A stretch of 64,000 nucleotides of DNA, taken from Betaproteobacteria bacterium. Lineage in GTDB: Bacteria; Pseudomonadota; Gammaproteobacteria; Burkholderiales; Rhodocyclaceae. This document shows, piece by piece, positions 1,649 through 61,798 of this stretch. A program made the position numbers and the translations under genes. Positions within the stretch are counted from its first letter, which is position 1; every line of letters begins with the position of its first letter. The stretch covers positions 62,001 through 126,000 of the forward strand of contig JAHRYW010000009.1 of assembly GCA_020621865.1 (NCBI GenBank), written 5' to 3'. The notes beneath the pieces are model-generated. The model was not told the DNA's origin, searched no databases, and saw nothing but the letters and a program-made list of their open reading frames with translations.

Positions 1649-1687
1649 AATGCTACGGTCGGCCCCAAAAAAGAGCAAAAAACGAGA
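1649..1687 (+). repeat. Dispersed GCTACGGT element, copy a
   Basis: First of eleven copies of a ~40-bp element. The order is an AATGCTACGGTCGG head, an A-tract, and a second A-rich half. This copy lies 22 bp after the etfD stop codon and before the DUF485 ribosome binding site, so it is transcribed in the intergenic leader. Function unknown; see findings. Confidence 0.7.
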
Positions 1688-1730
1688 ACAGCAAAACCGT
1701 ATCAATTTTCCATGTAATAGAGGAGGGGCC

Positions 1731-2045
1731 ATGTCTCAACCCAATATCCAGGCAAGGATCCGGAGCAATCCGAAATTTGCCGAAATGGTCGGCAAGCGCT
1801 CGCGCTTCGCGATCACCCTGTCGCTGATCGTGCTGGTGCCTTACTACACCTTCATGATGATCACCGCCTTCAACCCGGCACTGCTCGCGCAGCCGCTGAC
1901 GGCCGGTGGCATCGTCACCGTCGGCTGGCCGGTCGGCGCCGTGCTGATCGTCGGTTCCTGGCTGCTGACCGGCATCTACATCCGCCGCGCCAACGGCGAA
2001 TTCGACGCCCTCAACGAACAGATCCTGAGCGAGGCCCGCAAATGA
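1731..2045 (+). CDS. yjcH: DUF485 membrane protein, ActP partner
   Basis: Small inner-membrane protein of the DUF485 family (104 aa), usually encoded directly upstream of the acetate symporter actP. Two hydrophobic segments are visible, around residues 25-48 and 60-80, with a polar tail. The start at 1731 follows a strong AGAGGAGGGG ribosome binding site. The frame is open further upstream, but that part would translate the repeat element and has no ribosome binding site. The stop overlaps the actP start (ATGA), indicating translational coupling. Its role with ActP is not firmly established. Confidence 0.9.
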
Positions 2046-3712
2046 AGCGCTCCTTTTCCGCCCTGACGGCCGGCATCCTGCTGGCTGTTTCCCAACTCGC
2101 CCTGGCCGGACCGGCCATTGAAGGCGTCGAGAAGCAGCCGATCAATGTCAGCGCCATCGCCATGTTCATGGTCTTCGTGCTGGCCACCCTCGGCATCACC
2201 AAGTGGGCCGCCGGCCGCACCAAGTCCACGGCCGACTTCTACACCGCCGGCGGCGGTATCACCGGCTTCCAGAACGGCCTGGCCATCGCCGGCGACTACA
2301 TGTCGGCGGCGACCCTGCTCGGCCTGACCTCGCTGATCTACGCCAAGGGCTACGACGGCTTCATCTACACCATCAGCTTCTTCGTCGGCTGGCCGATCAT
2401 CCTGTTCCTGATCGCCGAACGGCTGCGCAATCTCGGCAAATTCACCTTCGCCGACATCGCCTCCTACCGCCTCGACCAGAACCGCATCCGCACCTTTGCC
2501 GCCTTCGGTTCGCTGACCGTCGTCTGCTTCTACCTGATCGTCCAGATGGTCGGCGCCGGCCAGTTGATCCAGTTGCTGTTCGGGCTGGACTACAACTTCG
2601 CGGTGATCTGCGTCGGCCTGCTGATGATGGTCTATGTCACCTTCGGCGGCATGGTCGCGACGACCTGGGTGCAGATCATCAAGGCCTGCCTGCTGCTCGG
2701 CGGCGGCACGGTCCTGATGGTGCTTGCCTTCAGCCGCTTCGACTTCTCTTTCGACACCCTGTTCACCCAGGCCGTGGCCGCCCACAAATCCGGCATCGCC
2801 ATCATGGCGCCGGGCAAGCTGATGGCTGATCCGGTCTCCGCCGTGTCGCTGTCGCTGGCCCTGCTCTTCGGTACCGCCGGCCTGCCGCACATCATGATGC
2901 GCTTCTTCACCGTGCCGAACGCCAAGGAAGCCCGTAAATCGGTGTTCTACGCCACCGGCTTCATCGGCTTCTTCTTCCTCGTCGTGATGATCCTCGGCGT
3001 CTCCGCCATCGTCATCGTCGGCCAGGACCCTGGCTTCTTCGAAGGCGGCGTCGTTGGCGGCAAGCTGATCGGCGGCTCCAACATGCCGGTCATGCACCTC
3101 GCCAAGGCCGTTGGCGGCGACGTTTTCCTCGGCTTCCTGTCGGCCGTTGCCTTCGCCACCATCCTAGCCGTCGTCTCCGGCCTGGCGTTGGCCGGCGCCT
3201 CGGCCATCTCGCACGACCTCTACGCTCGTGTGATCAAGAAGGGCCAGGCCACCAGCGCCCAGGAAATGAAAGTCACCCGCATCGCCTCGGTCGCCATCGG
3301 CTGCATCGCCATCATCCTCGGCATCCTGTTCAAGGACCAGAACGTCGCCTTCCTGGTTGCCCTGGCCTTCGGCGTCGCCGCCTCGGTCAATTTCCCGGTG
3401 CTGATCCTGTCCATGTACTGGAAGGGCCTGACCACTCGCGGCGCGCTGTGGGGCGGCATCGCCGGCCTGGTTTCCGCCGTCGGCCTGGTCATCCTGTCGC
3501 CGGCCGTCTGGGTCAAGGTGCTTGGCAATGCCCAGCCCGTCTTCCCGTACGACCACCCGGCCATCATCTCGATGACCACCGCCTTCCTCGTCACCTGGCT
3601 GATGTCGGTCACCGACAAGAGCGCCCGTGCCGCCAGCGAAGCCGAAGCCTTCGAGGAGCAGTTCATCCGCGCCCAGACCGGCCTCGGCGCTGCGTCCGCA
3701 TCGGCGCATTAA
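2042..3712 (+). CDS. actP: Cation/acetate symporter ActP
   Basis: Sodium:solute symporter (SSF family) of 556 aa for uptake of acetate and other short carboxylates across the inner membrane. It begins with a signal-like segment ending ALAGPA and continues with about 13 hydrophobic helices; the [12 protein letters not shown] and [11 protein letters not shown] stretches are typical of ActP. It overlaps the DUF485 gene by 4 nt and is followed by a clear intrinsic terminator. Together with ackA and the pta-like fusion (18-20.7 kb) and the alcohol dehydrogenases (47-52 kb) it suggests active acetate metabolism. Confidence 0.95.
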
Positions 3713-3762
3713 AGACCTCTGCGTATGTGGCGGCGGTGCAATCCCGCTCCTCATGCTCCTTT

Positions 3763-3787
3763 AGGGACCTTCGGGTCCCTTTTTTTA
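3763..3787 (+). terminator. Intrinsic terminator of yjcH-actP
   Basis: Perfect 7-bp stem AGGGACC/GGTCCCT with a TTCG tetraloop followed by an unbroken T-run, 50 bp after the actP stop. Textbook rho-independent terminator. Confidence 0.93.
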
Positions 3788-3854
3788 TTGTTGGCGTCGA
3801 CATCACTGCCCGCTGCTGCCTGTCCGTCTTGGCCAGGATAGGCCATCAACTTTT

Positions 3855-3892
3855 GAAAAAAGGGCTGTTTTTTCCGGCCGACCGTAGCATTT
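3855..3892 (-). repeat. Dispersed GCTACGGT element, copy b
   Basis: Minus-orientation copy: the reverse complement reads AAATGCTACGGTCGGCCGG then an A-tract. It starts at the egtD stop codon itself, so it forms the 3' untranslated region of the egtBD transcript. The second half (CCCTTTTTT) deviates from the family. Confidence 0.65.
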
Positions 3893-4869
3893 CAGAGGGC
3901 TGGATCGGGGGACTCCAGCCAGTGCAGGCTGAACAGCCCGGCCTCGTCGCACCAGGTGGCGCGGGGCAGGAAACCGCAGGCGGTGGCCAGGGCGCGAAAG
4001 CCGTCAACGGTATATTTCTGCGAACTTTCGGTGTGGATCGATTCGCCCGGCGCCAGGGCGAAGCGGTCGCCATTCAGCGAAACCTGCTGGGCGGTGGCGC
4101 TGACCAGATGCATCTCGATGCGCTGCTGCGCCGGGTGGTAGAAGGCATAGTGCCGAAAGGCGTCGATTTGGAAATCGCAGCCCAGTTCGCGGTTGGCGCG
4201 GACCAGCAGATTGCGGTTGAAGGCGGCCGTCACCCCGGCCGCATCGTTGTAGGCGGCGTGGAGCAGGGCGGGGTCCTTGACCAAATCGACCCCGATCAGC
4301 AGTCCGCCGCCGCGCAGCAGGCGGGCCGCGGCGACCAGGAAGCGCGTGGCCTCGGGCATGGAGAAATTGCCGATCGTCGAGCCGGGGAAAAAGCCGACCC
4401 GGCGGCCGGTGGTGGAATGCCACAGCGGCAGGTTTTCCGGATGGGTGAAGTCGGCGACCACCGGCGTCACCGTCAGGGCCGGATAGCTGCGCCGCAGGTC
4501 GGTGCACGCGGCGTTCAGATGCTCGCCGGAAATGTCGATGGCGACGAAACCGCGGGGAGCCTCCAGGACGTCGAGCAGCAAACGCGCCTTGAGCAGCGAG
4601 CCGGCGCCGAACTCGATCACCTCCGCCTCGGGGCCGATCAGTGCGGCCATCGGGTAGATATGGCGGCGAAAGATCGCCAGCTCGGTACGCGTTACGTAGT
4701 ACTCCGGCAGTTCGCAAATTCGGTCGAAAAGCTGCGAGCCGTGGGCGTCGTAGAAATACTTGGGGGAAATGGCATGGGGCTTGTCGGCCAGGCAGGCCAG
4801 CATGTCCCGCCCGAATACCGAAGTTTCGTCAGTCCAGGGCGCCGCGAGCTGGCTGAGTACGGCGGCCAT
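3892..4869 (-). CDS. egtD: L-histidine N-alpha-methyltransferase EgtD
   Basis: SAM-dependent trimethylation of histidine to hercynine, the first step of ergothioneine synthesis; cytoplasmic. 325 aa, close to the family norm. Visible motifs are the N-terminal SPKYFYDAHGSQLFDRI and EYYVTRTELAI segments, the SAM-binding VIEFGAGSLLKA, and FFPGSTIGNF. The start at 4869 overlaps the egtB stop by one base (TGATG), giving tight coupling. The frame runs further upstream, but that part is the shadow of egtB. Bacterial ergothioneine usually serves as an antioxidant thiol. Confidence 0.93.
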   Translation of the reverse strand: MAAVLSQLAAPWTDETSVFGRDMLACLADKPHAISPKYFYDAHGSQLFDRICELPEYYVTRTELAIFRRHIYPMAALIGPEAEVIEFGAGSLLKARLLLDVLEAPRGFVAIDISGEHLNAACTDLRRSYPALTVTPVVADFTHPENLPLWHSTTGRRVGFFPGSTIGNFSMPEATRFLVAAARLLRGGGLLIGVDLVKDPALLHAAYNDAAGVTAAFNRNLLVRANRELGCDFQIDAFRHYAFYHPAQQRIEMHLVSATAQQVSLNGDRFALAPGESIHTESSQKYTVDGFRALATACGFLPRATWCDEAGLFSLHWLESPDPAL

Positions 4870-6170
4870 CACAGATCCCGGGCCAGCCGCAGGCCGGAGA
4901 ACTGCCAGCGCGCCGCCGGCGGGAAGAAATTGCGGTAGCTGGCCCGCAGATGGCCCGGCGGGCTGGCGCAACTGCCGCCGCGCAGCACCAGCTGGCCGAC
5001 CATGAACTTGCCGTTGTATTCGCCGACCGTCCCCGGCAACGGCCGGAATCCCGGGTAGGGATCGTAGGACGAACGCGTCCATACCCAGGCATCGCCATAA
5101 GCCTGGCGCAGGCCGGGGCCGGGGCCGCTGGCCTGCGGATGCAGGATGGCCGGATCGAGAAAGTTGCCGCGGACCGGCTGCCCGGCAACGGCGGCCTCCC
5201 ACTCGAATTCGGTCGGCAGGCGCGCATCGGCCCAGGCCGCGTAGGCGGCCGCTTCGTAAAAACTGATGTGGCACAGCGGTTCGGCCGGGTCTACGGCGCG
5301 CCGGCCGTGCAGCGTAAAAACGCTCCATTCGCCGTTGCCTTCCGGGCGCCAATAGAGCGGGGCTTGCCAGTCGTTGGCCTGGACCGCCGCCCAGCCGTCG
5401 GAGAGCCAGAACTCCGGGCGCCGGTAAGCACCATCGGCCATGAAGGCGAGATATTCGCCGCAGGTGGTCAGGCGGTCGGCCAATTGATACGGGCGCAACA
5501 GCAGGCGGTGGCGGGGCGTTTCGTTGTCATAGCAGAAACGGCCATCGACCGGCTGCCCGACGCTTGTTTCGCCGCCGGTGAAGTCCACCCAGCCGGGCGC
5601 CACGGCGTCGCCGACCGGGGTCGGGCGACGTGGGCGATAGACCGGGTCGAAGGGGTTCAGGGCCAGGCCATACTTGATGTCGGTGAGGATCAGTTCCTGG
5701 TGCTGCTGTTCGTGGTTGAGGCCCAGTTCGATCAAGGCCGCGGCCTTTTCCTCAAATTCGTCGCCGCCATCGGCGATGCAAGCCAGCAGCGCACCATCGA
5801 CATGTTGCCGGTAGGCGAGAACCTCATCGATTCCGGGGCGGGTGATCATGCCGCGCTGGGGTCTGGGTTGGCGCGCCCCAAGGCTCTCGTAATAGGAATT
5901 GAACAGGTAAGCGTAGCGGTGATCGTACGGCCGGTAAGCGGCGACATGGGCCAGCAGCACCACGGTTTCAAAAAACCAGGTGGTGTGCGCGAGGTGCCAT
6001 TTCGTCGGGCTGGCATCGGGCATTCCCTGCAGGCATTGATCCTCCGCCGACAGCGGCGCGGCCAGTTGCTCCGACAGGCTCCGCACGGCCAGGTAGCGCG
6101 CCGCCAGATCACTGCGGGCGACGTCAGGGAGCCGGGCATCCGGCCTGTCATACAAGCTGCTGCTCGGCAT
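4869..6170 (-). CDS. egtB: Ergothioneine biosynthesis sulfoxide synthase EgtB
   Basis: Non-heme iron enzyme joining a thiol donor to hercynine. 433 aa with an N-terminal DinB-like helical domain and a C-terminal formylglycine-enzyme-like (FGE-sulfatase) domain. Candidate iron ligands are the histidine in WHLAHTTWFFE and those in NHEQQHQELILTD (H-x3-H-x-E). The C-terminal domain shows PTEFEWEAA and RGGSCASPPGHLRASYRNFF, typical of the fold. An AGGAGTG ribosome binding site precedes the ATG. egtB and egtD overlap as a two-gene operon; no egtA, egtC or egtE is nearby, as is common outside actinobacteria. The thiol donor (cysteine or gamma-glutamylcysteine) cannot be read from the sequence. Confidence 0.92.
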   Translation of the reverse strand: MPSSSLYDRPDARLPDVARSDLAARYLAVRSLSEQLAAPLSAEDQCLQGMPDASPTKWHLAHTTWFFETVVLLAHVAAYRPYDHRYAYLFNSYYESLGARQPRPQRGMITRPGIDEVLAYRQHVDGALLACIADGGDEFEEKAAALIELGLNHEQQHQELILTDIKYGLALNPFDPVYRPRRPTPVGDAVAPGWVDFTGGETSVGQPVDGRFCYDNETPRHRLLLRPYQLADRLTTCGEYLAFMADGAYRRPEFWLSDGWAAVQANDWQAPLYWRPEGNGEWSVFTLHGRRAVDPAEPLCHISFYEAAAYAAWADARLPTEFEWEAAVAGQPVRGNFLDPAILHPQASGPGPGLRQAYGDAWVWTRSSYDPYPGFRPLPGTVGEYNGKFMVGQLVLRGGSCASPPGHLRASYRNFFPPAARWQFSGLRLARDL

Positions 6171-6319
6171 GTCACTCCTCTCGAATGGAGGGTCGGGGGC
6201 GAACTACACGATCACTACGTCGGGCGACGCCTGGTGTCTGAATTTCATGCTTCTACTGCGGGTGCGAACCAAGCTGTCCTCAAGTCGGGGAATTCGGAAT
6301 CACAGGGTGCTACGGTTCC

Positions 6320-6526
6320 TTAGTTGCCCGGGACACCGGCCAACGCTTCTTCCTTGATCAGGGTTTTCAGCATTGCGCGTAGCTCCGGGCTATCGCTGTG
6401 ACCGTGTATGGCCACGGCGTGCTGTACGGCAACGTCCAGCAATTCGCGTTCGGAATCCGCCGAGATCGCCACCGTGCAGTGGATCTCGCTTGGATATTCG
6501 CGGCAGTCGATAAATTTGCGGGCCAT
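6320..6526 (-). CDS. DUF1059 family small protein
   Basis: 68-aa protein with the DUF1059 pattern: a Cys near the N-terminus (DCREYP), a second Cys in HCTVAISADSERELL, and a histidine-rich VQHAVAIHGHSDSPELR segment. The spacing of Cys and His suggests metal binding, but no function is established. ATG 6526 is preferred over the GTG at 6532, which lies inside the GGAGGTG ribosome binding site. Its 3' end faces the leader of egtB. Confidence 0.8.
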   Translation of the reverse strand: MARKFIDCREYPSEIHCTVAISADSERELLDVAVQHAVAIHGHSDSPELRAMLKTLIKEEALAGVPGN

Positions 6527-6637
6527 GATCACCTCCAGAAACGGACTTTGTTCGATACAACGTCATAAACCCGCTGGTTAGAGAAACGCAAAAATGTAAG
6601 GTTCCCGCGCTTCCATCGCATCGTTGTTTATTGGCGT

Positions 6638-6678
6638 TTGCTACGGTCGCCTGGAAAAAATGGCCAAAAAGCGAATGG
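6638..6678 (+). repeat. Dispersed GCTACGGT element, copy c
   Basis: Intergenic copy: TTTGCTACGGTCGCC, GGAAAAAATGGCCAAAAA, then GCGAATGGCCGG. It lies upstream of the DUF1059 gene and 17 bp beyond the 3' end of the small minus-strand ORF that ends at 6695. Confidence 0.7.
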
Positions 6679-6694
6679 CCGGCAACCGCATTTT

Positions 6695-6889
6695 CTAATG
6701 CAGAACCCAGTCACGAGTCCAGTCGTCACTGCGTCGTTTCGACGGGCGGAGCAGGACGCGCAACGCAACCATGAGCGGCACGCCAGTGCGGTACATCAAC
6801 GTCGCTCCTGCCTTGATGTCGGAGAACAAGGCGACCGCAATGCCACGTTCAACGGCGGTGGCTGTCAGGTTATTGGCGCGAACGAACAT
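6695..6889 (-). CDS. Small hypothetical protein
   Basis: Possible 64-aa basic protein starting MFVRANNLTATAVERGIAV, with one weakly hydrophobic stretch (TGVPLMVALRVLL) and an RPSKRRSDDW tail. The ATG at 6889 has a GGAG ribosome binding site seven bases upstream. The reading frame continues to 7045 without a better start. No family recognised. The main support is the ribosome binding site and the otherwise empty region. Confidence 0.4.
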   Translation of the reverse strand: MFVRANNLTATAVERGIAVALFSDIKAGATLMYRTGVPLMVALRVLLRPSKRRSDDWTRDWVLH

Positions 6890-7159
6890 ATCGGACTCCA
6901 CAGGCTGCCTTGTCGTTATCCGACCGATCCAAGGCTTGGGATAGCTAACCCCTTCTTTTAACTTAGATGATTTTTGGGCGAATGTTGTTCCTTTGCTCCT
7001 GAATGAGGTGCCCGACAGGGTTTGGCCATTCAGTACGTCACCCACGCAACAGCCTGGCTGCCGGTCATTTCGGCCTGTGACGTCCGCCAGCGGTAAGTCA
7101 GTGAATTTTTTCCGGCAGGCCGATGTCGAAAAGATACGTCACTCCCTTAGGAGCAAATC

Positions 7160-7516
7160 ATGAAGAAGATTTCTGCACGTCTCCTCCCGACCGCGCTGCT
7201 GGCGCTGACTGTCGGTTTCCACACGCCTGTCGTCCGCGCTGAAATGGTCACCACCCCGGAGGCCGCCACCCAGGAATCCACCGATGCCGAACGGGCCAAG
7301 GTGCAGCAATTCCTTGAGCAGGCCACCGTCAAGGAACGCCTCCAGGCCATGGGGGTGGATGGGGTATTTGCCACCGAGCGGGTAGCGGCCCTGGATCAGC
7401 AGGAAATCCACGCGCTCGCCCAGCGCATCGATGCCATGCCGGCGGGGGGCAATCTCACCACTTATGAGATGATCCTCGTCGTTCTTATCGCCATCCTGGT
7501 GGTGATCATCCTCTGA
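7160..7516 (+). CDS. PA2779-family membrane protein
   Basis: 118-aa exported protein: signal peptide to about residue 27 (VVRAEM), a charged helical middle with the KVQQFLEQATVKERLQAMGV segment typical of the PA2779 family, and a C-terminal hydrophobic anchor (LVVLIAILVVIIL). An AGGAGCAAATC ribosome binding site precedes the ATG. It ends one base before the PA2778-type peptidase gene, the usual pairing. No function has been established; the pair may mark a small envelope secretion or maturation system. Confidence 0.85.
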   Translation: MKKISARLLPTALLALTVGFHTPVVRAEMVTTPEAATQESTDAERAKVQQFLEQATVKERLQAMGVDGVFATERVAALDQQEIHALAQRIDAMPAGGNLTTYEMILVVLIAILVVIIL

Positions 7517-7517
7517 C

Positions 7518-8447
7518 GTGGGATTTTTCTCACGTTGCCTATGCGCCGCCACGGTTCTGCTCCTGGCGGCTTGTGCAAGCCATCCCCCGGGAGACTGGGG
7601 GATCGCGCCCGGCGATCCGCTCCCTGAACGGGCGGAAAGGCAGGACGTCCCCTTCCATCCCCAGGAGGCCTACCAGTGCGGCCCGGCCGCCCTGGCTACT
7701 CTCCTCGGCGGTGCCGGCATCCAGCGCAGTCCGGAGGCACTCCGGGATGAGGTCTATATCCCCGCCCGACAGGGGAGCCTGCAGCCGGAAATCATGGCGG
7801 CCGCACGCCGCGCCGGTGCCGTTGCCTACCGCATTGCTCCCGAGCCACGGGCGCTGCTGAAGGAACTGGCCGCCGGCCATCCCGTGCTGGTGCTCCAGAA
7901 CCTGCGCTTCGACTGGCTGCCCCAGTGGCACTACGCCGTGGCGGTGGGCTACGATCTGCCCGCCGGGCAGGTGTTCTTGCGCTCGGGGGGCGAGCAGCGC
8001 CTGGTCATGGACCTTGCCGACTTCGACCGCAGCTGGGCGAAAGCCAAGCGCTGGGCGTTTGTCGCCCTGCCTCCCGACCGCCTGCCAGCCACCGCCAATG
8101 AAACGGATTACGTGACGGCGGCAGTCGCCGTCGAGCGGGTTGCTCCCGCCACCGCCGAGGCGGCCTACCGCACAGCCCAGAAGGCCTGGCCGCATAATCT
8201 GGTCAGCCGCATCGGGCTCGGCAACGCGGCCTACCGGCGAGGCGACCTGAGCGCTGCCGAAGCCGCCTTCCGGCAAGCGGCGAGCGAACATCCGGAATCC
8301 GGCGATGCCTGGAACAATCTCGCCCAGGTTCTCCACGAGCGGGGCAACAAGGCCGCCGCCCGCGAGGCCGCCGAACGGGCCGTGGCCATCGGCGGGCCGC
8401 GGCTGCCGACTTACCGAAAGACCCTGGAGAGCGTTTCCGGCGGGTGA
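7518..8447 (+). CDS. PA2778-family cysteine peptidase with TPR, lipoprotein
   Basis: 309 aa. A lipoprotein signal (LLLAACASH) predicts envelope anchoring. The peptidase C39-like domain (residues ~40-180) has the catalytic Cys in EAYQCGPAALATLL and His in QWHYAVAVGYD, with an Asn/Asp expected after it. The C-terminal third contains TPR-like helices (GLGNAAYRRGDLSAAEAAFR, SGDAWNNLAQVLHERGN). GTG start at 7518 directly after the PA2779-type gene, so translation is probably coupled. C39-like enzymes often cleave double-glycine leaders, but no substrate is visible here. Confidence 0.87.
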   Translation: MGFFSRCLCAATVLLLAACASHPPGDWGIAPGDPLPERAERQDVPFHPQEAYQCGPAALATLLGGAGIQRSPEALRDEVYIPARQGSLQPEIMAAARRAGAVAYRIAPEPRALLKELAAGHPVLVLQNLRFDWLPQWHYAVAVGYDLPAGQVFLRSGGEQRLVMDLADFDRSWAKAKRWAFVALPPDRLPATANETDYVTAAVAVERVAPATAEAAYRTAQKAWPHNLVSRIGLGNAAYRRGDLSAAEAAFRQAASEHPESGDAWNNLAQVLHERGNKAAAREAAERAVAIGGPRLPTYRKTLESVSGG

Positions 8448-8492
8448 TGCCCGGCTCCTGCTGGCGCTTCGCTTGGCTCTCGCTTAAGCGCG

Positions 8493-8534
8493 AATGCTAC
8501 GGTCGGCGGCAAAAAACGGCCGAAATTGAAATTC
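8493..8534 (+). repeat. Dispersed GCTACGGT element, copy d
   Basis: Near-consensus copy: AATGCTACGGTCGGCGGC, A6, CGGCC, then GAAATTGAAATTCC. It sits between two convergent genes, 45 bp after the peptidase stop and 41 bp from the GGDEF-EAL stop. Confidence 0.75.
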
Positions 8535-8574
8535 CGCCCAGCGCCGCCAAGCGTTACGGAAAAAAACCGGCAAG

Positions 8575-10782
8575 TCAGCCGTATCGCTGGCTCAGCCAGG
8601 CCTCGAATTCGGCCGTCGGCAGCGGGCGACTGAACAGGAAGCCCTGCAGCACATCACACCCGATCTCGGCCAGGAAGTGCTGCTGGGCCTCGGTTTCAAC
8701 GCCTTCGGCGACGACCGACAGGCCGAGCCGGCGGGCCAGGGTGACCACGGCGCTGGCCACGGCGGCGTCGGTTTCCGATTCCGGCAGGTGCTGGACGAAA
8801 CTGCGGTCGAGCTTGAGGACATTGAGCGGCAGGGTGCGCAGCATCGCCAGCGACGAATGGCCCGTGCCGAAATCGTCCATGGCGACCTGGATGCCCCGTT
8901 CGCGCAGGCGCTGCAGGACCTCGATCGCACCTTCCGGGTGGGCCATGGCCGCCGATTCGGTGATCTCCAGTTCGATCCATTCGTTTTCCACGCCGGCCGC
9001 CGTCAGGATGCGTTCCAGGCGGTTGGCCAGGTCGGTGGCGTGGAACTGGCGCGGCGACAGATTGACCGCCATGCGCGGCACGCCGATGCCCTGCTGGCGC
9101 CAGGTGACGATCTGGCGCGCCGCTTCGGCCAGCGCCCATTCGCCGAGTTCGGTGATGATGCCGGCCTCTTCGGCCAGCGGGATGAACTCGACCGGCGAGA
9201 CCAGGCCGCGCTCCGGATGGCGCCAGCGGAGCAGGGCTTCGACGCCGGCCAGCTGGCCGTCGGACGAGCGGATCTGCGGCTGGTAAAACAGTTCGAGCTG
9301 GCGGCGCGCCACGGCCCGGCGCAAATCGCTTTCCAGCGCCAGGCGCTGGCTGGCGCGCCGGTTCATCGCCTCGTCGTAAAAGCGGAAGGTGTTGCGCCCG
9401 GCCGCCTTGGCGGCATACATCGCCGCATCGGCGTTGCGCAGCAGGCTGGTGGCGTCGTTGCCGTCATCGGGGTGGAGCGCCATGCCGAGGCTGGCGGCGA
9501 CATCGATGTCGCGCCCGCCGACGTGCAGCGGCAGGGCCAGGGCGGTGAGTATTCGCTGGGCGACGCCGGCGGCAGCCCCGGCATCGGTGATGTCTTCGAG
9601 CAGCATGACGAACTCGTCGCCAGCCAGCCGGGCCAGCGTGTCGGCGCCGCGGCAGAGGGCGCCCAGGCGCCTGGCGACCTCGATCAGCACGGCATCGCCG
9701 GCGGCATGGCCGAGGCTGTCGTTGATCAGCTTGAAGCGGTCGAGGTCGATGAAGCAGACGGCAAAACCCTTGCCGCGGTCGGCTCGGGCCAGGGCCTGGT
9801 GCAGCCGGTCGTCGAACAGGCTGCGGTTGGGCAGGTTGGTCAGCGAATCGTGGTTGGCCAGGAAAGCCAGCTGGCCCTCGGCCTCCTTCCGGGCGGTGAC
9901 GTCGTTGAGCACGCCGACGTAATGCGAAATGCTGTCGCCGTCGCCGCGCACCGGCGACAGGAACAGTTCGATCCATTGCTGCGAACCGTCGGCGCGCTGT
10001 CGTGACAGGGTCGTGTAGCCGTCGCGGCCTTCGGCGATGGCGCCGCGGATCACGGCAAAGCCGTCGTCGTCGCCGGTGCACAGGCAAGGCTGGCCGAGCA
10101 CCTGGTCGCGCGGCGTGCCGATGATCTGCGAGAAGGCGGCGTTGATGTAGATCAGCCGGCAGTCGTCGGGTGCGGCAGCGGCGATGAAGATGCCATTGAC
10201 GCTGGATTCGATGGCCCGGTCGCGCAGGGCAATGGCGCGTTTGTCGGCGTGGATGTAGGTGTCGAGCGTCAGGCCGAGGTCGAGCATGACGACCTTGAGC
10301 AGCGCGTCGAAAGTCGGGACAAAGGCGGCGAACTCTTCTCCGCTGGCCGTCCAGGTCGCCTTCAGCATGTCCGAAAGATACTTGCGGAAGGCGCCGACAT
10401 ACCATTTCGGGGTCAGGCCGATGCGGGCATGGGTCATGCCGACCCGCAGCCGGCCATCGACGTAGGCATCGCCGTAATCGCCATCGGTCAGGCTGGCGAA
10501 ATAGCGGCCGTGGGCCGACTTCAGGCGGGCGACCGTGGCCTCGTCGGGGAGCAGGGCGGCCAGTTCCGGCAACTGGCGCAGGTATTCGTAAAAGCCGTCG
10601 GCAAAGCCGTTCTGGGCCGCCGCCAGCTTGCCGCGAATGGCGCGCAAGTGCCCGGCATCGGCGTCAGTCAGCTCCAGGAAAGCCTTGCGCGACGCGATCT
10701 CGGCCGCGTCGATGCCCATCTCGGCGGCAATGTCATCCACCGCGCCGGCGCTCAGCGCCGGTGTCTCCGCTCGGCAACTCAT
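8575..10782 (-). CDS. Globin-coupled GGDEF/EAL cyclic-di-GMP enzyme
   Basis: 735-aa cytoplasmic sensor enzyme. Residues ~30-175 form a globin-coupled sensor domain; His ~118 in [10 protein letters not shown] is the likely proximal heme ligand, so it probably senses O2 or another diatomic gas. A PAS domain (~200-310) precedes a GGDEF domain with [14 protein letters not shown]: the signature is AGDEF rather than GGDEF, so cyclase activity is uncertain. The EAL domain begins at [14 protein letters not shown] and retains [11 protein letters not shown] and [10 protein letters not shown], so phosphodiesterase activity looks intact. The start overlaps the stop of the upstream chemoreceptor gene (ATGA), linking gas sensing to motility or biofilm control. 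Confidence 0.93.
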
Positions 10783-12048: not shown

Positions 12049-12165
12049 TCAGAAGACAATCTGCCCGGCGAGGGGTTGCAGTGAGCCGACTGTTAATTCA
12101 CCGGGCGGACTGGCTTGAGGGAATAAGGGCGCGTCGTCGGTCAAAGCCAGCGGATAGCGCAAATG
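12049..12165 (-). pseudogene. 3' remnant of a minus-strand gene
   Basis: An open frame of 38 codons ends FPQASPPGELTVGSLQPLAG followed by Q-I-V-F and a stop, and a good terminator lies 26 bp downstream. It has no start codon with a ribosome binding site, and upstream it meets a repeat element and then the AT-rich island. The look of a normal gene end without its body suggests a gene truncated when the neighbouring DNA changed. The family is not recognised. Confidence 0.33.
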
Positions 12166-12205
12166 CTACGGTCGGTGGCAAAAAACGGCCAGAATTGAAA
12201 TTCTG
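12161..12205 (+). repeat. Dispersed GCTACGGT element, copy e
   Basis: Near-consensus copy: AAATGCTACGGTCGGTGGC, A5, CGGCC, then an inverted repeat CCAGAATT-GA-AATTCTGG. It marks the left limit of the AT-rich island; GC content drops immediately to its right. Confidence 0.75.
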
Positions 12206-12708
12206 GTCTGACCAAAAACGCTACCCATGCTTCTTTAGGTATTTTTGGATCCCGACTTTGGGGGGACGGGTTTTCGGCCAAAGCAGACCTCCTTCATATC
12301 GGTAGTCAATGACTGCTTTACACAGAATTTCGGAAATACCCAAAAGTCATTCAGGAATACCCGACCCGCTGCAGAGGGGTGCCCAGATAGTCAGCTACAT
12401 CATGCCCGCAGACAGAGCCGCCGGCGAGCCTCGACTCGATACAAGGCCCAATAAAGTTCGATCCGGCGTTATGCGGTTGGCTTGGACAACCAAAAGGGGT
12501 GATGTTCCTCGTCATGCGAGTAGGCGGAGAGGGGCACAACCCGGACCCCCTTTTACAGAGACAATAGTCCTAGAACGGCAACGCTTCTTGGAATCTAGTG
12601 CAATTGTCGACGGCGTATTACGCTCAAGGACACTTACATTTTTACTGTGCCTCTATGTTTCTGGTCCGAGCCAGATACTCGCTAAAGTAATGTATTTAGA
12701 TACGGTGA
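12206..12708. other. AT-rich island flank without a convincing gene
   Basis: About 500 bp between the repeat element and the 3' end of the CD-NTase gene. The one open frame of any length (12309-12728, plus) has no ribosome binding site and an arginine-rich, family-less translation, so it is not called. I see no integrase, transposase remnant or tRNA. The composition is mixed: GC-richer at 12360-12550, AT-rich after. Confidence 0.5.
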
Positions 12709-13992: not shown

Positions 13993-13993
13993 T

Positions 13994-21879: not shown

Positions 21880-21924
21880 CCGTTTTTCGATTTTGGCGGC
21901 TTTTTGCCGCCGACCGTAGCATTT
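21880..21924 (-). repeat. Dispersed GCTACGGT element, copy f
   Basis: The reverse complement reads AAATGCTACGGTCGGCGGC, A5, GCCGCCAAAATCGAAAAAC. It lies 14 bp after the fabI stop and upstream of the kinase-like gene, within the leader of the kinase/phosphatase pair. Confidence 0.75.
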
Positions 21925-27562: not shown

Positions 27563-28062
27563 CGGCGCCGGTCGTCATCTTCGCCATCGGCAACCCCAGT
27601 CGTGGCGACGACGCGATCGGCCCGGAATGCTACGGTCGCCTCGAAAAAATGCTCAAAAATGAAATTCTGGCCGGCGACGTCGAATTGATAGAGGACTTCC
27701 AGTTGCAGATCGAACACGCCCTCGATCTGCAGGGCAGGGCGCTGGCGCTGTTCATCGACGCCGGCGTCGATACCCCGGCCCCATACGTCTTCGAGCGCAT
27801 CTTTCCCTCGACTGCCGTCGCCCACACCAGCCACGCGCTGTCGCCCCAGGCCGTGCTGCAGGTCTACCGGCAGACCGAAGGCGCCGAGCCGCCACCGGCC
27901 TTCGTGCTCTGCGTGCGCGGGGAGCGCTTCGAGCTAGGCGAGGCACTGTCGGGCGAGGCGAGCGGCCGCGTCGAGGCGGCCGTCCCTCTGGTCGTCGAGC
28001 TCTGTCGTCAGCCCGGATTGAACGCCTGGGAGCAGGCATCCGGAGAGGTCATAAATAGTTGA
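27559..28062 (+). CDS. hoxW: Hydrogenase maturation protease HoxW
   Basis: 167-aa HyaD/HoxW-type endopeptidase that trims the HoxH C-terminus after nickel insertion. Metal-probing residues are the Asp in NPSRGDDAIGP, the Asp in LFIDAG and the His in HTSHALSPQ. EDFQLQIEHALDL is typical of the HoxW group. Residues ~23-37 (ECYGRLEKMLKNEIL) are encoded by a copy of the dispersed repeat element; judged against my recollection of the family, this region of helix 1 is several residues longer than usual. Last gene of hoxFUYHW. No hypABCDEF accessory genes are in the window. Confidence 0.9.
   Translation: MTAPVVIFAIGNPSRGDDAIGPECYGRLEKMLKNEILAGDVELIEDFQLQIEHALDLQGRALALFIDAGVDTPAPYVFERIFPSTAVAHTSHALSPQAVLQVYRQTEGAEPPPAFVLCVRGERFELGEALSGEASGRVEAAVPLVVELCRQPGLNAWEQASGEVINS
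27626..27669 (+). repeat. Dispersed GCTACGGT element, copy g (inside hoxW)
   Basis: AATGCTACGGTCGCC, TCGAAAAAATGCTC, AAAAATGAAATTCTGG. It lies wholly within the hoxW reading frame without a stop and encodes residues ~23-37. Confidence 0.75.
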
Positions 28063-29302: not shown

Positions 29303-29385
29303 GTTTTACCTCCTGAAATGCTTGTCTGGCGTTGCATTCAGCCTTGTTGAGGTTCATGCTACGCCAAGTCGGGAGGATTGAAAAC

Positions 29386-30798
29386 ATGCGTCTCGGGTTT
29401 CTTGGAGCGGCCGGCGAAGTGACCGGTTCCTGCACTGTCGTTGAAGCGGGCGATGTCCGTTTCCTGGTCGATTGCGGCATGTTTCAGGGCGGCCCGGAAG
29501 CCCGGCAGAAAAACCAGCGGGCGCTCAATCCCGGCTTCGACGTCCGCCAGCTCGACTTCGTGTTGCTGACCCACGCCCACATCGATCACTCCGGCCTCTT
29601 GCCCCGCCTGGCGACGCTCGGCTTTCGCGGGCCGATCTACGCCACGCCGGCGACCATCGCCTTGCTCGAAGTCCTGCTGCCGGACAGTGCCCATATCCAG
29701 GAGAAGGAATCGGAGTGGCAGTTGCGCCACCGGCGTCGGCAGGGTCAGGGCGAGCGCGGCATCCAGCCGCCGCTCTACACCGTCGCCCAGGCGCAGGCCT
29801 GCCTGAAGCTGTTGCAGCCGATAGGCTACGGTAAGCCGGAAAAATTGGCCAAAAACGTAACTGTCACTTTCCGCGATGCCGGCCACATCCTTGGTTCGGC
29901 CTCGCTGGAAGTGGTCGTCGGCGGTGAGGGCAAGCCGCGCCGGCTGGTTTTTTCCGGCGACCTCGGCATGCCCGACCGGCCGGTGCTCTGCGACCCCGAG
30001 CCGCCGCCGGCCGAGGCCGACGTGTTGTTGATCGAATCGACCTACGGCGACCGCCTGCATCGCTCGCTGCTGGAGACCGAGGAGGAAATCGTCGGCGCCA
30101 TCGAGCGGACGCGGGCAGCCGGCGGTAACCTGATCATCCCGGCCTTCGCGGTCGGCCGCACGCAGGAGATCATCTACCTGCTGGCCGATCTGGTCCGCCG
30201 CAAGCGGGTGAGTTCGCTGAAGGTCTATGTCGATTCGCCGATGGCCAATGCAGCGACCCGTATCACGCTGGACAATCCCGATCTGCTCGACCCGGAGACC
30301 AGGGAGTTGATCGCCTGGCAGCGGACGCATCAGGATCGAATGCACATCGAGTTCGTCGCCGATGTGGAGCGCTCCAAATCGCTCAACGACATCCGCCACG
30401 GCGCGGTGATCCTGTCGGCCAGCGGCATGTGCGAGGCCGGGCGGATCAAGTACCACCTGCGCGAAAACCTGCCGCGCAGCGAATGCAGCGTGCTGATCGC
30501 CGGTTTTCAGGCGGCCGGGACGCTCGGCCGCCGCTTGGTGGATGGGGCGCGGCTGGTGCATATCTTCGGTCAGCCGGTGCCGGTCCGGGCGCGCATCTAT
30601 ACGGTTGGCGGACTGTCGGCGCACGCCGACCAGGCAGCCTTGCTCAACTGGCTGCGCGGCTTTCACCGGCCGCCCGGCCGGACTTTTGTCGTCCATGGCG
30701 AGGCCGGCGCATCGGCCAATTTCAAGCGCGCCATCGAAGAGGAACTGGGCTGGTCAGAGGTGGGTTTGCCGCTGCCCGGCGAGTTCGTATCGCTGTAA
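29386..30798 (+). CDS. Beta-CASP metallo-beta-lactamase RNA hydrolase-like protein
   Basis: 470-aa member of the CPSF/Ysh1-like branch. The metallo-beta-lactamase motif LLTHAHIDHSGLLP supplies the zinc ligands, with DAGHILGS, FSGDLGM and the beta-CASP motifs VGRTQEIIYLL, SASGMCEAGRI and TVGGLSAHADQ. Expected to be a ribonuclease or related phosphodiesterase. The start at 29386 has a GGGAGG ribosome binding site at good spacing; the longer frame from 29332 does not. Residues ~147-158 (GYGKPEKLAKN) are encoded by a repeat-element copy without obvious change in length relative to relatives. Confidence 0.9.
   Translation: MRLGFLGAAGEVTGSCTVVEAGDVRFLVDCGMFQGGPEARQKNQRALNPGFDVRQLDFVLLTHAHIDHSGLLPRLATLGFRGPIYATPATIALLEVLLPDSAHIQEKESEWQLRHRRRQGQGERGIQPPLYTVAQAQACLKLLQPIGYGKPEKLAKNVTVTFRDAGHILGSASLEVVVGGEGKPRRLVFSGDLGMPDRPVLCDPEPPPAEADVLLIESTYGDRLHRSLLETEEEIVGAIERTRAAGGNLIIPAFAVGRTQEIIYLLADLVRRKRVSSLKVYVDSPMANAATRITLDNPDLLDPETRELIAWQRTHQDRMHIEFVADVERSKSLNDIRHGAVILSASGMCEAGRIKYHLRENLPRSECSVLIAGFQAAGTLGRRLVDGARLVHIFGQPVPVRARIYTVGGLSAHADQAALLNWLRGFHRPPGRTFVVHGEAGASANFKRAIEEELGWSEVGLPLPGEFVSL
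29824..29858 (+). repeat. Dispersed GCTACGGT element, copy h (inside beta-CASP gene)
   Basis: GGCTACGGTAAGCCGG, AAAAATTGGCCAAAAACG. Apart from two positions it matches copy k (61228) across 32 bases, defining a GTAAGCCGG subtype. It lies in frame within the coding sequence. Confidence 0.7.
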
Positions 30799-34826: not shown

Positions 34827-36125
34827 ATGCAGGCATTGATGGCCTTCGAAAGCGCGCCGCCCCTGGCGGCCCCGTTGCGCTTTTTCCTGACCGCGCCGCT
34901 GTTTGCCGTTCTGGCCGGGTTGCTGGTCACCTTTGAAGGGGCGGATATCTTCGCTTCGCGGTGGACGCCGGGCGCGCTCGCGGCTACCCATCTGCTGACG
35001 GTCGGTTTCATGATGCAGGCGATGCTGGGGGCGCTGATCCAGATCCTCCCGGTCGTTGCCGGTGCCAACCTCGAGCATCCGCTCAGGGTCGCCAAAATCG
35101 TTCATCCCGGCCTTTCTCTCGGTGCGCTGCTACTGGCGACCGGGCTCTATCTGGCCAATCCGCTGCTGCTCACCGGCGCCGCATTGTTGTTGGGGCTGAC
35201 GGTGGTCTTCTTCCTGGCGGCAACGCTGCGGGCGCTGATCGGCGTTCCATCGACCAGTCCGACTATTCGCGGTCTCAAGCTGGCGCTCCTTGGTCTGGCC
35301 TGTGTTGTCGGCATCGGCATCGTCATGGCACTGGCGCTGGCCTATGGCTGGTCCATTCCTTTGCCGGCGCTGGCCGATCTGCATGCCGGCTGGGGGCTGG
35401 GAGCCTGGGCTGGCGTGTTGCTGGCAGCCATCGCCTACGTGGTTGTCCCGATGTTCCAGCTGACGCCGGGTTACCCGTCGCGCCCCAGCTGGTGGTTTCC
35501 GGTCGCCATGCTGGCCATGCTGCTGCTGTGGAGCATCGCCCTGCTGGTCGATTGGCCCTGGCTGGTCCGCATCAGTCAGCTGGTCGCCGCCGCCGCCGGC
35601 ATCGCCTTTGCCGGGCTGACCCTGCGCCTGCAGGGCGGGCGCCGCCGGGCGCGGGCGGACGCGACCTATCGCTATTGGCAGCTCGGTTTGTCGTCGAGCA
35701 TTTTTGCCCTTTTTTTGCTTTCGACCGTAGCATTGTGGCCTGCCGCGGCCGAAATGGATGGCTGGACGCTGTTGTTCGGCATATCGCTGGTGGCCGGCGG
35801 TTTCGTGTCTTTCATTGTCGGCATGTTCTACAAGATCGTTCCTTTCCTGGCCTGGTTGCACCTGCAGAACTGCGGGCAGGCCAAGGTGCCGGCGCCAGCC
35901 ATGAACAAGATCCTGCCTGATGCCGATGCCCATCGACAGTGGCTGGCGTATGCCGGTTCGCTTGGTTTGCTGCTCGCTGCCGCGCTGTTTCCACGCTGGC
36001 TGGCGGTGCCGGCCGGTCTGGCGTTTGCGGCTGCCAATGGCTGGCTGGCCTGGAACCTGTGGAGCGCTTTCCGTCGCTATGGCCGCTATCGGGCCGAGAT
36101 CCTGAACAAGCTGGCGCTGCCGTGA
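34827..36125 (+). CDS. NnrS-like polytopic heme-copper-type membrane protein
   Basis: 432-aa inner-membrane protein with about 12 hydrophobic helices. His-containing helices (LAATHLLTVGFMMQAMLGAL, DLHAGWGLGAWAGVLL, FLAWLHLQ) could ligand heme or copper, as in NnrS and oxidase-like proteins. Context (hemerythrin, DUF2249, SirB2, DNR box) supports a role in the NO/nitrite or microaerobic response. Residues ~291-303 (SIFALFLLSTVAL), part of one transmembrane helix, are encoded by a repeat-element copy in reverse orientation. Stop overlaps the SirB2 start. Confidence 0.72.
   Translation: MQALMAFESAPPLAAPLRFFLTAPLFAVLAGLLVTFEGADIFASRWTPGALAATHLLTVGFMMQAMLGALIQILPVVAGANLEHPLRVAKIVHPGLSLGALLLATGLYLANPLLLTGAALLLGLTVVFFLAATLRALIGVPSTSPTIRGLKLALLGLACVVGIGIVMALALAYGWSIPLPALADLHAGWGLGAWAGVLLAAIAYVVVPMFQLTPGYPSRPSWWFPVAMLAMLLLWSIALLVDWPWLVRISQLVAAAAGIAFAGLTLRLQGGRRRARADATYRYWQLGLSSSIFALFLLSTVALWPAAAEMDGWTLLFGISLVAGGFVSFIVGMFYKIVPFLAWLHLQNCGQAKVPAPAMNKILPDADAHRQWLAYAGSLGLLLAAALFPRWLAVPAGLAFAAANGWLAWNLWSAFRRYGRYRAEILNKLALP
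35698..35735 (-). repeat. Dispersed GCTACGGT element, copy i (inside NnrS-like gene)
   Basis: The reverse complement reads CAATGCTACGGTCGAAAGC, A7, GGGCAAAAATGCTCG. It is antisense to the host gene and supplies most of a membrane helix in frame. Confidence 0.72.
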
Positions 36126-49320: not shown

Positions 49321-49893
49321 ATGAGCTTGACGAGAAATTTCATTTTTGCCCTTTTTTTGCTGCCGACCGTAGCATTTGCTGCGGAACCGGGCGAACCGCT
49401 GGTCATCAACGGTTGCGGCATCTGGCCGCACGCCCGTTGCCCGGGAGCAGACCTGCGCCATGCCGACCTACGCGGCAAAAACCTGGCCGGCGCGGACTTT
49501 ACCGGCGCCAATCTGGCACGTGCCGATTTGCGCGACGCCAATTTGGCTGGGGCGATATTTGACGGTGCTGACCTGACGGCGGTCCGCCTGAACAAGGCAC
49601 AGGCGGCAACTGCAACTTTCCGGGGGGCCAAAATGATCGGCGCCGATCTGGAGTTTGCCCGGCTGTTCCGTGCCGACTTGACCGGGGCCGACTTGACGGC
49701 CGCCAATCTGGAGGCAGTGCGTGCCAATTTTTCCTGGTTCAAGGAAGCTCGCATGGTCAATGCCAATCTCCAGGAAACCAAATTCTTCACGGTGAATTTC
49801 AAGGGGGCAGATTTGACGGGCTCATTCCGCAAATACACCGTTTTCGCCGACAGCTTCTACGAAGGCTGTACGGCATGCCCGAGCGACGAATGA
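49321..49893 (+). CDS. Exported pentapeptide-repeat protein
   Basis: 190 aa. Signal peptide (LTRNFIFALFLLPTVAFAAE) and then A-D/N-L-x-x repeats (ADLRHADLRGKNLAGADFTG and onward to ~residue 175) forming a right-handed beta-helix. Cys pairs near both ends (NGCGIWPHARC, EGCTAC) suggest disulfides in the periplasm. Residues 6-19, the hydrophobic core of the signal peptide, are encoded by a reverse-oriented repeat element. ATG 49321 is preferred over 49318, which abuts the ribosome binding site. The stop overlaps the cytochrome gene. Similar proteins occur beside PQQ dehydrogenases, role unknown. Confidence 0.85.
   Translation: MSLTRNFIFALFLLPTVAFAAEPGEPLVINGCGIWPHARCPGADLRHADLRGKNLAGADFTGANLARADLRDANLAGAIFDGADLTAVRLNKAQAATATFRGAKMIGADLEFARLFRADLTGADLTAANLEAVRANFSWFKEARMVNANLQETKFFTVNFKGADLTGSFRKYTVFADSFYEGCTACPSDE
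49335..49377 (-). repeat. Dispersed GCTACGGT element, copy j (signal peptide of pentapeptide protein)
   Basis: The reverse complement reads AAATGCTACGGTCGGCAGC, A7, GGGCAAAAATGAAATTT. It is antisense to the host gene and encodes the signal-peptide core N-F-I-F-A-L-F-L-L-P-T-V-A-F. Confidence 0.78.
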
Positions 49894-52635: not shown

Positions 52636-52679
52636 GTCTCCGTTGAAAACAACCCTGTGAAGGTTGTTCAGGAGACAAA

Positions 52680-58103: not shown

Positions 58104-58109
58104 CCCCGT

Positions 58110-58135: not shown

Positions 58136-58238
58136 GGCCTCGTGAAAATCGCTAGGCGCTATTCCGGATTTCATCCTTGTTCCCGCAGGGGCGCTGGCCA
58201 ACAATGGCCCATTGCGTCTTGATGATGAAAGTGACCGT

Positions 58239-59384: not shown

Positions 59385-59388
59385 TATT

Positions 59389-59487
59389 TTGCGCCATCCT
59401 TACGACTCCGCTAGCGGCACGATCATGCTCGGCATCTTGCTGACCGTTGTGCTGGTTGCCTCGCTGCGCCTGTGGATGGCGGTTTAA
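59389..59487 (+). CDS. Small single-helix membrane protein
   Basis: 32 aa from a TTG start with GGAAGG eight bases upstream, ending 3 bp before the next gene. R-H-P-Y-D-S-A-S-G-T followed by the hydrophobic IMLGILLTVVLVASLRLWMA. Tight placement between pqqE and the PuuD-like gene supports it as real. Function unknown. Confidence 0.5.
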   Translation: MRHPYDSASGTIMLGILLTVVLVASLRLWMAV

Positions 59488-59490
59488 TCC

Positions 59491-59997: not shown

Positions 59998-59999
59998 GC

Positions 60000-61055
60000 A
60001 TGGTCTGGAACTTCGCGGCCGGTCCGGCCCGCCTGCCTGACGCGGTGCTGGCGCGGGCGAGCGCGGAGTTGTTTCGGCGTGGGGACGACGGCGCCTGCCA
60101 GATCGAGCGGCCGTTCAGCAGTCAGCCATTTCGCGCGCTTCGCGAGCATGCTCGGCAGCGTCTGAGCGATTTGCTCGGGTTGCCGGACGGCTATCGCATC
60201 CTCTTTCTGGCCGGCGGTGCGATGCAGCAGTTTTCGCAGGTGCCAATGAACCTTGGTTCGCCGGCAAGGCGTGGCGGCTACGTGCAAACAGGTTATTGGT
60301 CGCGCCGGGCGATGAACGAGGGGGCGGCGCATCTGCCGGTCGTCGCGCTGGTGCAACCGGAGGATGGCGGGCAGCCGGCGCTGCCAGAAGATCTTGCCTA
60401 TTGTCATGTGACCACCAACGAAACCGCCGATGGCCTGGCCTGGCCGTCGTTGCCCGACACCGGCAAGATCCCGCTGGTTGGTGACTGCACCTCGGATTTT
60501 TTGACGGCTCCGCTGGCCGTCGAAAAATTCGGCCTGTTGTACGCCAGCGCCCAGAAGAACATCGGGCCGGCCGGCGTGACGGTGGTCATCGTGCGCGAGG
60601 ATCTGCTGGCGCGTTCGCCGGATACCTTGCCGGGGATGTTTTCCTATCGACGCCAGGCCGAGGCCAACAGCTGTGTTAACACCCCGCCGATGCTGGCCTT
60701 GCAACTCTCGGTCATGGTTTTCGACTGGATTGCCGAGCAGGGCGGTCTGCCGGCCATGGCCGAAGCAGGTCGGCGCAAGGCGGCGCTGGTCTATGGCGCG
60801 ATTGATGCCAGCGGCGGGTTTTACCGGATTCAGGTTGCCGCCAGTTGGCGTTCTCCGGTTAATGTCTGTTTTCAACTGGCCGACAACGGGTTGGTGGAGC
60901 ATTTCATCGACGAGGCCGAGGCGGCAGGACTGTATTACCTGCGTGGGCATCCGCAACTTGGCGGTTTGCGGGCCAGCCTGTACAACGCCATGCCGGAGGC
61001 CGGTGCAGCAGCGTTGGCAAAATTCATGGTCGAGTTTCAGCGGCGATGGGGATGA
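60000..61055 (+). CDS. serC: Phosphoserine aminotransferase
   Basis: 351-aa class V PLP aminotransferase making 3-phosphoserine from 3-phosphohydroxypyruvate. NFAAGPARLPDAVL is the family N-terminus; FLAGGAMQQFSQVPMNL and the PLP-lysine in YASAQKNIGPAG are clear. ATG 60000 overlaps the previous stop region. It overlaps the following gene by 10 bp. Slightly diverged from typical SerC, so it could be a second copy. Confidence 0.9.
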   Translation: MVWNFAAGPARLPDAVLARASAELFRRGDDGACQIERPFSSQPFRALREHARQRLSDLLGLPDGYRILFLAGGAMQQFSQVPMNLGSPARRGGYVQTGYWSRRAMNEGAAHLPVVALVQPEDGGQPALPEDLAYCHVTTNETADGLAWPSLPDTGKIPLVGDCTSDFLTAPLAVEKFGLLYASAQKNIGPAGVTVVIVREDLLARSPDTLPGMFSYRRQAEANSCVNTPPMLALQLSVMVFDWIAEQGGLPAMAEAGRRKAALVYGAIDASGGFYRIQVAASWRSPVNVCFQLADNGLVEHFIDEAEAAGLYYLRGHPQLGGLRASLYNAMPEAGAAALAKFMVEFQRRWG

Positions 61056-61798
61056 TGCGCCCCGGGTTCGGCTGGCTAAACCGCCCCGGGCTGGCCGGGG
61101 GCATCGACAAGACCGGCGAACGGGCCGCCGAATTGCTCGCTCTGGATTTTGGCAGTGTCGAGTTCGGTTCGGTGACCAGGCTGCCTCTGCCGGGGAGTAA
61201 CCCGGGATTGCAGGCACTGATTCTCGCAATTGCTACGGTAAGCCGGAAAAAAAGGCCAAAAACCGCAATTGGCATCGGCCTCGGGCTACCTCCGGATTTG
61301 CCGGCCGAGGCGCTGGCCGACGAATGGCTGCAAGGGCTGGGCTTGCTGGCTGAGCTTCCGCCGGTGCCCGACTATCTGAGCCTGAATCTGAGTGCTGCGG
61401 CGAATCGGCGTTTTGTCGGCGCAGATCTGCGGCCCGTCCTGTTGGATGCGCTGGCCCAGGTGGCGCAATGGCGTCAGAAGCAGAGCCCGGTGAATAGGCC
61501 GCAACTGGCCGTCAAATTGCCGCTGGAGGCAGCTATCGGCTTGGTGCCGGCGATTCGGCAGGCCGGCGTGGGGCAGATGACTGTGGTCATTCCTGATGCG
61601 CAGCCACGACGAGTCGGGCTGCTCATGCTCAGGCAGTTGTGTTCGGCTGCTTCGGGGATGCGGATCGTTGCCGTGGGCGGCATCCGTAAAGCGACGGACC
61701 GGCTGGAAATGCTGAACGCCGGCTGTGCCGGCGTTCAGGTCCATCGTCTGTTCGTGGCGGAGGGAGCCGCCACCCCAGGTTTGCTGCTTACTTACTGA
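61046..61798 (+). CDS. Dihydroorotate dehydrogenase-like protein (short)
   Basis: 250 aa, TIM-barrel flavoprotein-like. GLAGGIDKTGERAAELLALDFGSVEFGSVTR resembles the N-terminal FMN region of class 2 PyrD, and PDYLSLNLS and IVAVGGI the later strands, but at 250 residues it is ~80 shorter than PyrD and the catalytic loop is not obvious. Probably a PyrD paralogue of unknown role. Residues ~61-75 (ATVSRKKRPKTAIGI) come from a repeat-element copy. Overlaps serC. Confidence 0.68.
   Translation: MGMMRPGFGWLNRPGLAGGIDKTGERAAELLALDFGSVEFGSVTRLPLPGSNPGLQALILAIATVSRKKRPKTAIGIGLGLPPDLPAEALADEWLQGLGLLAELPPVPDYLSLNLSAAANRRFVGADLRPVLLDALAQVAQWRQKQSPVNRPQLAVKLPLEAAIGLVPAIRQAGVGQMTVVIPDAQPRRVGLLMLRQLCSAASGMRIVAVGGIRKATDRLEMLNAGCAGVQVHRLFVAEGAATPGLLLTY
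61228..61270 (+). repeat. Dispersed GCTACGGT element, copy k (inside PyrD-like gene)
   Basis: CAATTGCTACGGTAAGCCGG, A7, GGCCAAAAACCGCAATTGG. Same GTAAGCCGG subtype as copy h. CGCAATT occurs at both ends. In frame with the host gene. Confidence 0.73.

Follow-up and report, generated by a model that had tools for sequence, protein, structure and literature searches.

The window analysed here, a 64,000-nt stretch of contig JAHRYW010000009.1 (positions 62,001 to 126,000; assembly GCA_020621865.1) from a bacterium of the Rhodocyclaceae, carries eleven copies of a dispersed 42-nt element with the core GCTACGGT, which is probably a DNA uptake sequence. The copies are listed in Table 1 with their gene context; related genomes are designated by G numbers. 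A home-made, rough gene caller, whose called genes cover ~81% of 464 kb of the genome, puts 3 of the window copies within genes and 2 at gene edges, with the other 6 outside any called gene, leaving uncertain the split into six intergenic and five genic copies given in a preliminary description of this DNA. The intergenic share is probably overstated, because the caller misses genes. The 250-aa open reading frame (ORF) at the last site has only a partial match, to dihydroorotate dehydrogenase.

Table 1. Uptake-sequence-like sites in the window
Position	Strand	Bits	Context
1648..1689	+	52.7	outside called genes; also in G162
3851..3892	-	44.6	at stop end of histidine-specific methyltransferase gene
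6636..6677	+	48.6	outside called genes
8492..8533	+	60.1	between convergent called genes
12161..12202	+	55.6	outside called genes
21883..21924	-	51.9	also in G162 and G187
27625..27666	+	56.3	inside 167-aa ORF 27559-28062 (+); orthologue substitution ladder
29821..29862	+	41.3	inside beta-CASP metallo-beta-lactamase gene 29332-30798 (+); present in G187
35694..35735	-	36.9	antisense in 432-aa ORF 34827-36125 (+); orthologue substitution ladder
49336..49377	-	58.2	at called start of pentapeptide-repeat gene
61228..61269	+	50.6	in ORF 61046-61798 or intergenic

Abundance and anatomy of the element

The core GCTACGGT occurs 12 times in the window, compared with a mean of 0.77 over 100 dinucleotide shuffles. 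Eleven of the 12 copies are followed by a 7-nt spacer and an A tract, and their positions agree within 4 bases with those first reported; the copy at 6309 consists of the 8-mer alone. Across the whole assembly (2,901,865 bases, 74.65% complete) the strict pattern GCTACGGTN7AAAA, the counts of which cover one core form only, has 94 forward and 115 reverse matches (209), compared with 1 for the reversed pattern. The bare 8-mer is much less informative, with 440 occurrences in the assembly versus 297 for its reversal. A site matrix trained on 124 copies from loci of relatives and applied at a cut-off of at least 16 bits gives 64 sites in 464 kb of the genome, 0 in the reversed sequence and a mean of 0.2 in third-order Markov simulations (n = 5), and within the window it recovers exactly the 11 sites. 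A genome scan finding chance frequency, named in the preliminary description as a possible refutation, did not come about. A short motif is strongly over-represented across the genome, as in the DNA uptake sequence class.

The conserved stretch, determined from 41 copies (11 in the window and 30 elsewhere in the genome), spans 42 nt from -4 to +37 relative to the first core base, and flanking positions beyond it hold no more than about 0.2 bit each. Over 79 sites in 547 kb the element reads AAT-GCTACGGT-C, then a GC-rich spacer, W6, a single base, GGCC, W5, two bases (YG) and W5. The spacer is rigid at 7 nt, GGCC is usual but not constant in the window copies, and the centres of the first two A/T tracts lie ~10.5 bp apart. 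The tracts are composed of A/T and not of A only, which corrects the A5-A8 tract originally described. The core, originally called invariant, is so within the window but not over 464 kb, where 56 of the 64 matrix sites carry GCTACGGT, nor in sister species. When cores are counted given the tracts, the genome holds 73 perfect, 9 one-mismatch and 20 two-mismatch cores (1, 2 and 32, respectively, in the reversed control), so that perfect cores outnumber singly mismatched ones, as in DNA uptake sequences.

Carriers, dialects and origin of the sites

We infer that the carrier genus is Azonexus in the GTDB sense. Strict-pattern matches listed in named genomes come from Azonexus sp., Azonexaceae, Rhodocyclaceae, Dechloromonas sp. 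and unclassified Beta-, Gamma- and Proteobacteria. More than 20 strict copies are present in 14 of the 76 genomes of the genus. A family sample yielded a match in 17 of 121 genomes (including our own genome and two congeners), with at most 2 copies outside the genus, and a class sample, scanned with a pattern one base longer, yielded a match in 17 of 369 genomes, only our own genome having more than 2. Genomes with at least 13 strict copies, a label fixed before the dialects described below were found, cluster together on a single-gene tree covering 30 species (4 changes versus a shuffled mean of 10.3, with 0 of 500 shuffles as low).

Sister species have a common architecture and a common CGGTC, with different main outer cores that constitute dialects, two species being mixed. 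The matrix finds 33 sites in 200 kb of G154, of which 23 have [TG]CCACGGT; in G164 it finds 21 sites in 80 kb, with [TC]T[CG]ACGGT in 14, and in G190 it finds 13 in 40 kb, with [CT]CCACGGT in 7. The reversed sequence gives 0 in each case. A loss of the element in the sisters G164 (4 strict copies) and G154 (15) was considered and rejected, since both carry other outer cores at similar density. Counting without the matrix, as CGGTC plus A/T tracts at fixed offsets, gives a density of 1.3–2.75 per 10 kb in our own genome, G162, G133, G138, G154, G164, G144, and G190 (11–62 sites each; reversed 1–4). Five sampled congeners are nearly without the element by the same count: G112 has 6 sites in 400 kb (reversed 1; permuted cores 1–5), and G174, G126, G121, and G156 have 0 or 1 per 80 kb each. 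Iterative matrix refinement drifted in G112, G144, and G062 (reversed 41, 6, and 5, respectively) and was not used for these genomes; it also produced one-base-shifted duplicates in G144 and G190, for which other counts were used. G062 is intermediate, with 9 matrix-free sites in 80 kb. A generic matrix finds 7 sites in 80 kb there (L351-L354; reversed 0) with a weak consensus, which may represent a relic, a population at an early stage or a further dialect. No comparable uptake-like motif was seen among the top rows of a k-mer enrichment over 400 kb of G112. That genome (L031-L050) has a separate enriched repeat, GTCATTCCCG / CGGGAATGAC, with 15 occurrences in 400 kb compared with 0.74 expected, possibly a family resembling repetitive extragenic palindromes (REP).

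The origin of individual sites can be followed at two coding loci. At 27625-27666, 23 of 30 orthologue rows, our own included, have no gap within the 42 nt and are graded from no motif to the full motif, and the motif score tracks the strict copy number of the genome with a rho of 0.84 over 22 other species. At the antisense locus 35694-35735, 20 of 30 rows, counted likewise, are gapless, with a rho of 0.76 over 19 other species; species in both correlations are not independent, and the p-values are indicative only. The remaining 7 and 10 rows, respectively, contain gaps of a few bases only, and a gap near 42 nt is found in none of the orthologue rows at either locus. All 7 gapped rows at the first locus belong to low-count species, and at the second locus the gapped rows of G138 and G169 carry the motif, in which a one-base gap close to the 3' end is compensated. 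The element at these two coding loci was built by point substitution and not by insertion. Comparison of our sites with pieces of G162 and G187 was possible over the full length for 6 of 32 sites in 464 kb, giving 10 pairs. The site is kept in 9 of these pairs, the one exception being site 29821, the core of which is gone by substitution in G162; 2 of the 10 pairs show a one-base gap within the element.

In the complete relative G133, for which the first 100 of 114 copies were analyzed (reaching 3.79 Mb of the 4.15 Mb; origin not mapped), strand shows no difference between halves (p = 0.42), there is no two-arc strand bias (p = 0.74), and the copies are uniformly distributed as far as 3.79 Mb (p = 0.65). 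The element occurs in both orientations without detectable replication-strand bias in G133, and the 94 forward and 115 reverse copies of our own genome agree with this; the same holds for DNA uptake sequences. Across 54 bins of 10 kb, 3 sites fall in the 12 bins with a GC content below 0.59 and 75 in the 42 others. Two GC-poor deserts on one contig of our genome (G000:C3, ~150-204 kb and 302-354 kb) are without any site of at least 16 bits. One lies near mnmE and has a serine recombinase and type I restriction, and the other combines type I restriction with ImpB/MucB and a second DprA-like protein. The nine proteins scanned from within or next to the deserts include the serine recombinase, R subunits of type I restriction (two), the ImpB/MucB polymerase and the DprA-like protein, as well as HD, GGDEF and histidine-kinase proteins and MnmE. 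The gene content is partly mobile-like. Scarcity in recently acquired islands, as known for DNA uptake sequences, is seen here via the GC-poor bins.

Candidate function and alternative explanations

Uptake sequences have been described in the Pasteurellaceae (uptake signal sequence, USS) and the Neisseriaceae (DNA uptake sequence, DUS) (PMC12616744, PMC1626085, PMC7371117). The USS of Haemophilus influenzae consists of a 9-nt core and two AT-rich segments, extending to ~32 nt (PMC12616744, PMC1626085). USS are of substitutional origin, with a strong consensus and subclade core types (PMC1626085, PMC12616744), and their excess of perfect over mismatched cores has been called anomalous (PMC1626085). 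The present element resembles them in its short core followed by 3' A/T-rich segments, in its presence in hundreds of copies or more, in its origin by substitution (here at two loci), in its strong consensus (here in our own genome) and in its subclade core types (here with some species mixed). It differs from USS in its core, GCTACGGT and not AAGTGCGGT or ACAAGCGGT, in having three downstream A/T tracts and a total of 42 nt compared with two tracts and up to ~32 nt, and in a carrier that belongs to a different bacterial family. The ends of the USS core and of the GCTACGGT-type core have CGGT in common, to which we give no weight. A genome-wide tag for self-DNA with species dialects is also a feature of the Neisseriaceae DUS (PMC3630211, PMC7371117), and genomic islands are recognizable by aberrant DUS content (PMC7371117); DUS are described as lacking flanking motifs (PMC1626085), whereas this element has A/T tracts. 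In 547 kb of our genome the USS cores AAGTGCGGT and ACAAGCGGT have 1 and 2 copies (reversed controls 6 and 23, not enriched) and the Neisseria DUS GCCGTCTGAA has 0 copies. Membership in the USS or DUS family was rejected, as neither core sequence is enriched here.

We consider it likely that the element is a DNA uptake sequence of a lineage separate from the known ones, serving as a tag by which self-DNA is recognized in natural transformation. There is good support for its working like an uptake sequence; preferential uptake, a receptor and a drive are the parts of this reading that we infer. A cell-surface receptor, probably a minor type IV pilin, would bind the core, and the phased A/T tracts 3' of it may aid bending or melting of the DNA during import, by analogy with the Haemophilus USS. 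ComP is such a specific surface receptor in Neisseria. Tagged fragments would be imported more often and then recombined into the chromosome. A mutation giving rise to a tag, or improving one, would be favored because tagged DNA is taken up more and recombines, and tags would therefore accumulate in place by substitution, on both strands and in genic as well as intergenic sequence. We lean slightly toward a wider interpretation, in which the element is a third, independent self-recognition code, the outer-core dialects partly split the genus into DNA-exchange groups and the receptor coevolves with the dialect; the lower confidence in exchange groups reflects the mixed cores of G133 and G144. 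Searches of the open-licence literature on uptake sequences, Rhodocyclaceae/Rhodocyclales, Azonexus and Dechloromonas, and for the string GCTACGGTC, gave no account of the element among the papers listed. A third origin of uptake sequences, if true, would open the reasons for their evolution to comparative testing, together with the question of how a receptor changes in concert with hundreds of genomic sites, the main cores of the sisters already being different. As a practical handle, tagged DNA might then transform Azonexus and Dechloromonas.

Several observations weigh against an uptake function. The density of 1.3–3.5 per 10 kb is roughly 2- to 6-fold below that of H. influenzae, which has 1471 perfect USS cores in 1.8 Mb (PMC1626085), although the two figures are different measures. 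The ComEC family is present in 71 and the DprA family in 75 of the 76 genomes of the genus, and species that lack the element have comEC and dprA just as often, so that the two genes do not discriminate. The comEC gene of our own genome is interrupted (L285, G000:C11:198001-208000, 4416-8773); its pieces correspond to residues 1–241 and 238–666 of the G162 protein and lie ~2.35 kb apart, and residues 667–775 (G162 numbering) were not found at the split locus. Pilin-like proteins of four relatives, two with high and two with low counts, yielded no receptor candidate that stood out, the comparison covering 30 of their 63 matches. Cores are mixed in G133 (GCTACGGT in 6 and CCCACGGT in 5 of 14 sites) and in G144 (GCTACGGT, GCCACGGT and TCCACGGT in 3 of 12 sites each). 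The consensus is looser at the outer core in G133, G144, G154, G164, and G190, so that a strong consensus is not general, and the spacing of copies in G133 is random (coefficient of variation 1.01). With respect to the broken gene, Pasteurellaceae with recently inactivated competence genes still have dense USS (PMC1626085), and recent breakage of competence genes in some carriers is a point of likeness to USS. comEC is also split at a nearby codon in G154 (by ~34 kb; C33, ~109-143 kb) and in G174 (by ~32.5 kb; C1, ~2218-2251 kb), and interruption near codons 240–260 in three genomes suggests a recurrent integration site within a competence gene. The comEC open frames are shortened in G130, G191, G192, and G166. 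The split gene of G154 had prompted the idea that the element is lost where comEC is lost; it was dropped because G154 has sites with other cores.

The preliminary description had offered protein binding, DNA uptake or chromosome organization as functions of a genome-wide site. A functional site of this kind is supported, and DNA uptake fits best among these options. A site bound by a nucleoid-associated protein or by one of segregation or replication, kept by selection on the cell's own chromosome in the manner of FtsK-orienting polar sequences (KOPS), matS, Noc or Chi sites, is unlikely. KOPS, Chi and matS-type sites are strand-skewed or confined to one region. The element is like them an over-represented short motif, its sites are spread genome-wide and kept in 9 of the 10 G162/G187 comparisons, and a DNA-bending protein would suit the phased A/T tracts, but neither strand skew nor regional confinement was detected among the G133 copies analyzed. 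The restriction to one clade, with nearly no sites in the samples of five congeners, and the change of outer core between sister species further weaken an organizational role. The few sites in GC-poor bins also speak against it, though new islands would lack chromosomal sites too.

A very small mobile element had also been suggested. One spreading by insertion, similar to a miniature inverted-repeat transposable element or a REP, would account for many copies with a strong consensus. This explanation is extremely improbable: it is refuted at the two tested loci, where element-free orthologues align without a 42-nt gap, and the 79 sites include no identical pair of 42-nt elements, their 30-nt flanks having an average pairwise identity of 28% (largest 67%). 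Folding as RNA bears both on this explanation and on a transcription terminator, promoter or RNA element, which we regard as very improbable. Of six sites that were folded, five do not exceed shuffled sequences in stability, and one forms a stable hairpin (12153-12214, z -3.35), as a terminator might. Scanning the window against Rfam at gathering scores gave 0 matches, and identity with a catalogued repeat, the other possible refutation named in the preliminary description, was not borne out. Among 32 strict copies in 464 kb, the 14 that fall between called genes and the 5 at gene edges would suit a terminator, promoter or RNA element, subject to the roughness of the gene caller, but 13 lie wholly inside genes, 8 of them sense and 5 antisense.

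Other features of the window

The minus strand at 12712-14593 holds a pair of genes resembling a cyclic-oligonucleotide-based antiphage signaling system (CBASS), with a SMODS/AGS-C nucleotide cyclase and a gene for an effector with two transmembrane segments (2TM). An imperfect inverted repeat with 144-nt arms of 76% identity (48394-48537 / 51174-51317) probably derives from a related gene pair in opposite orientation.

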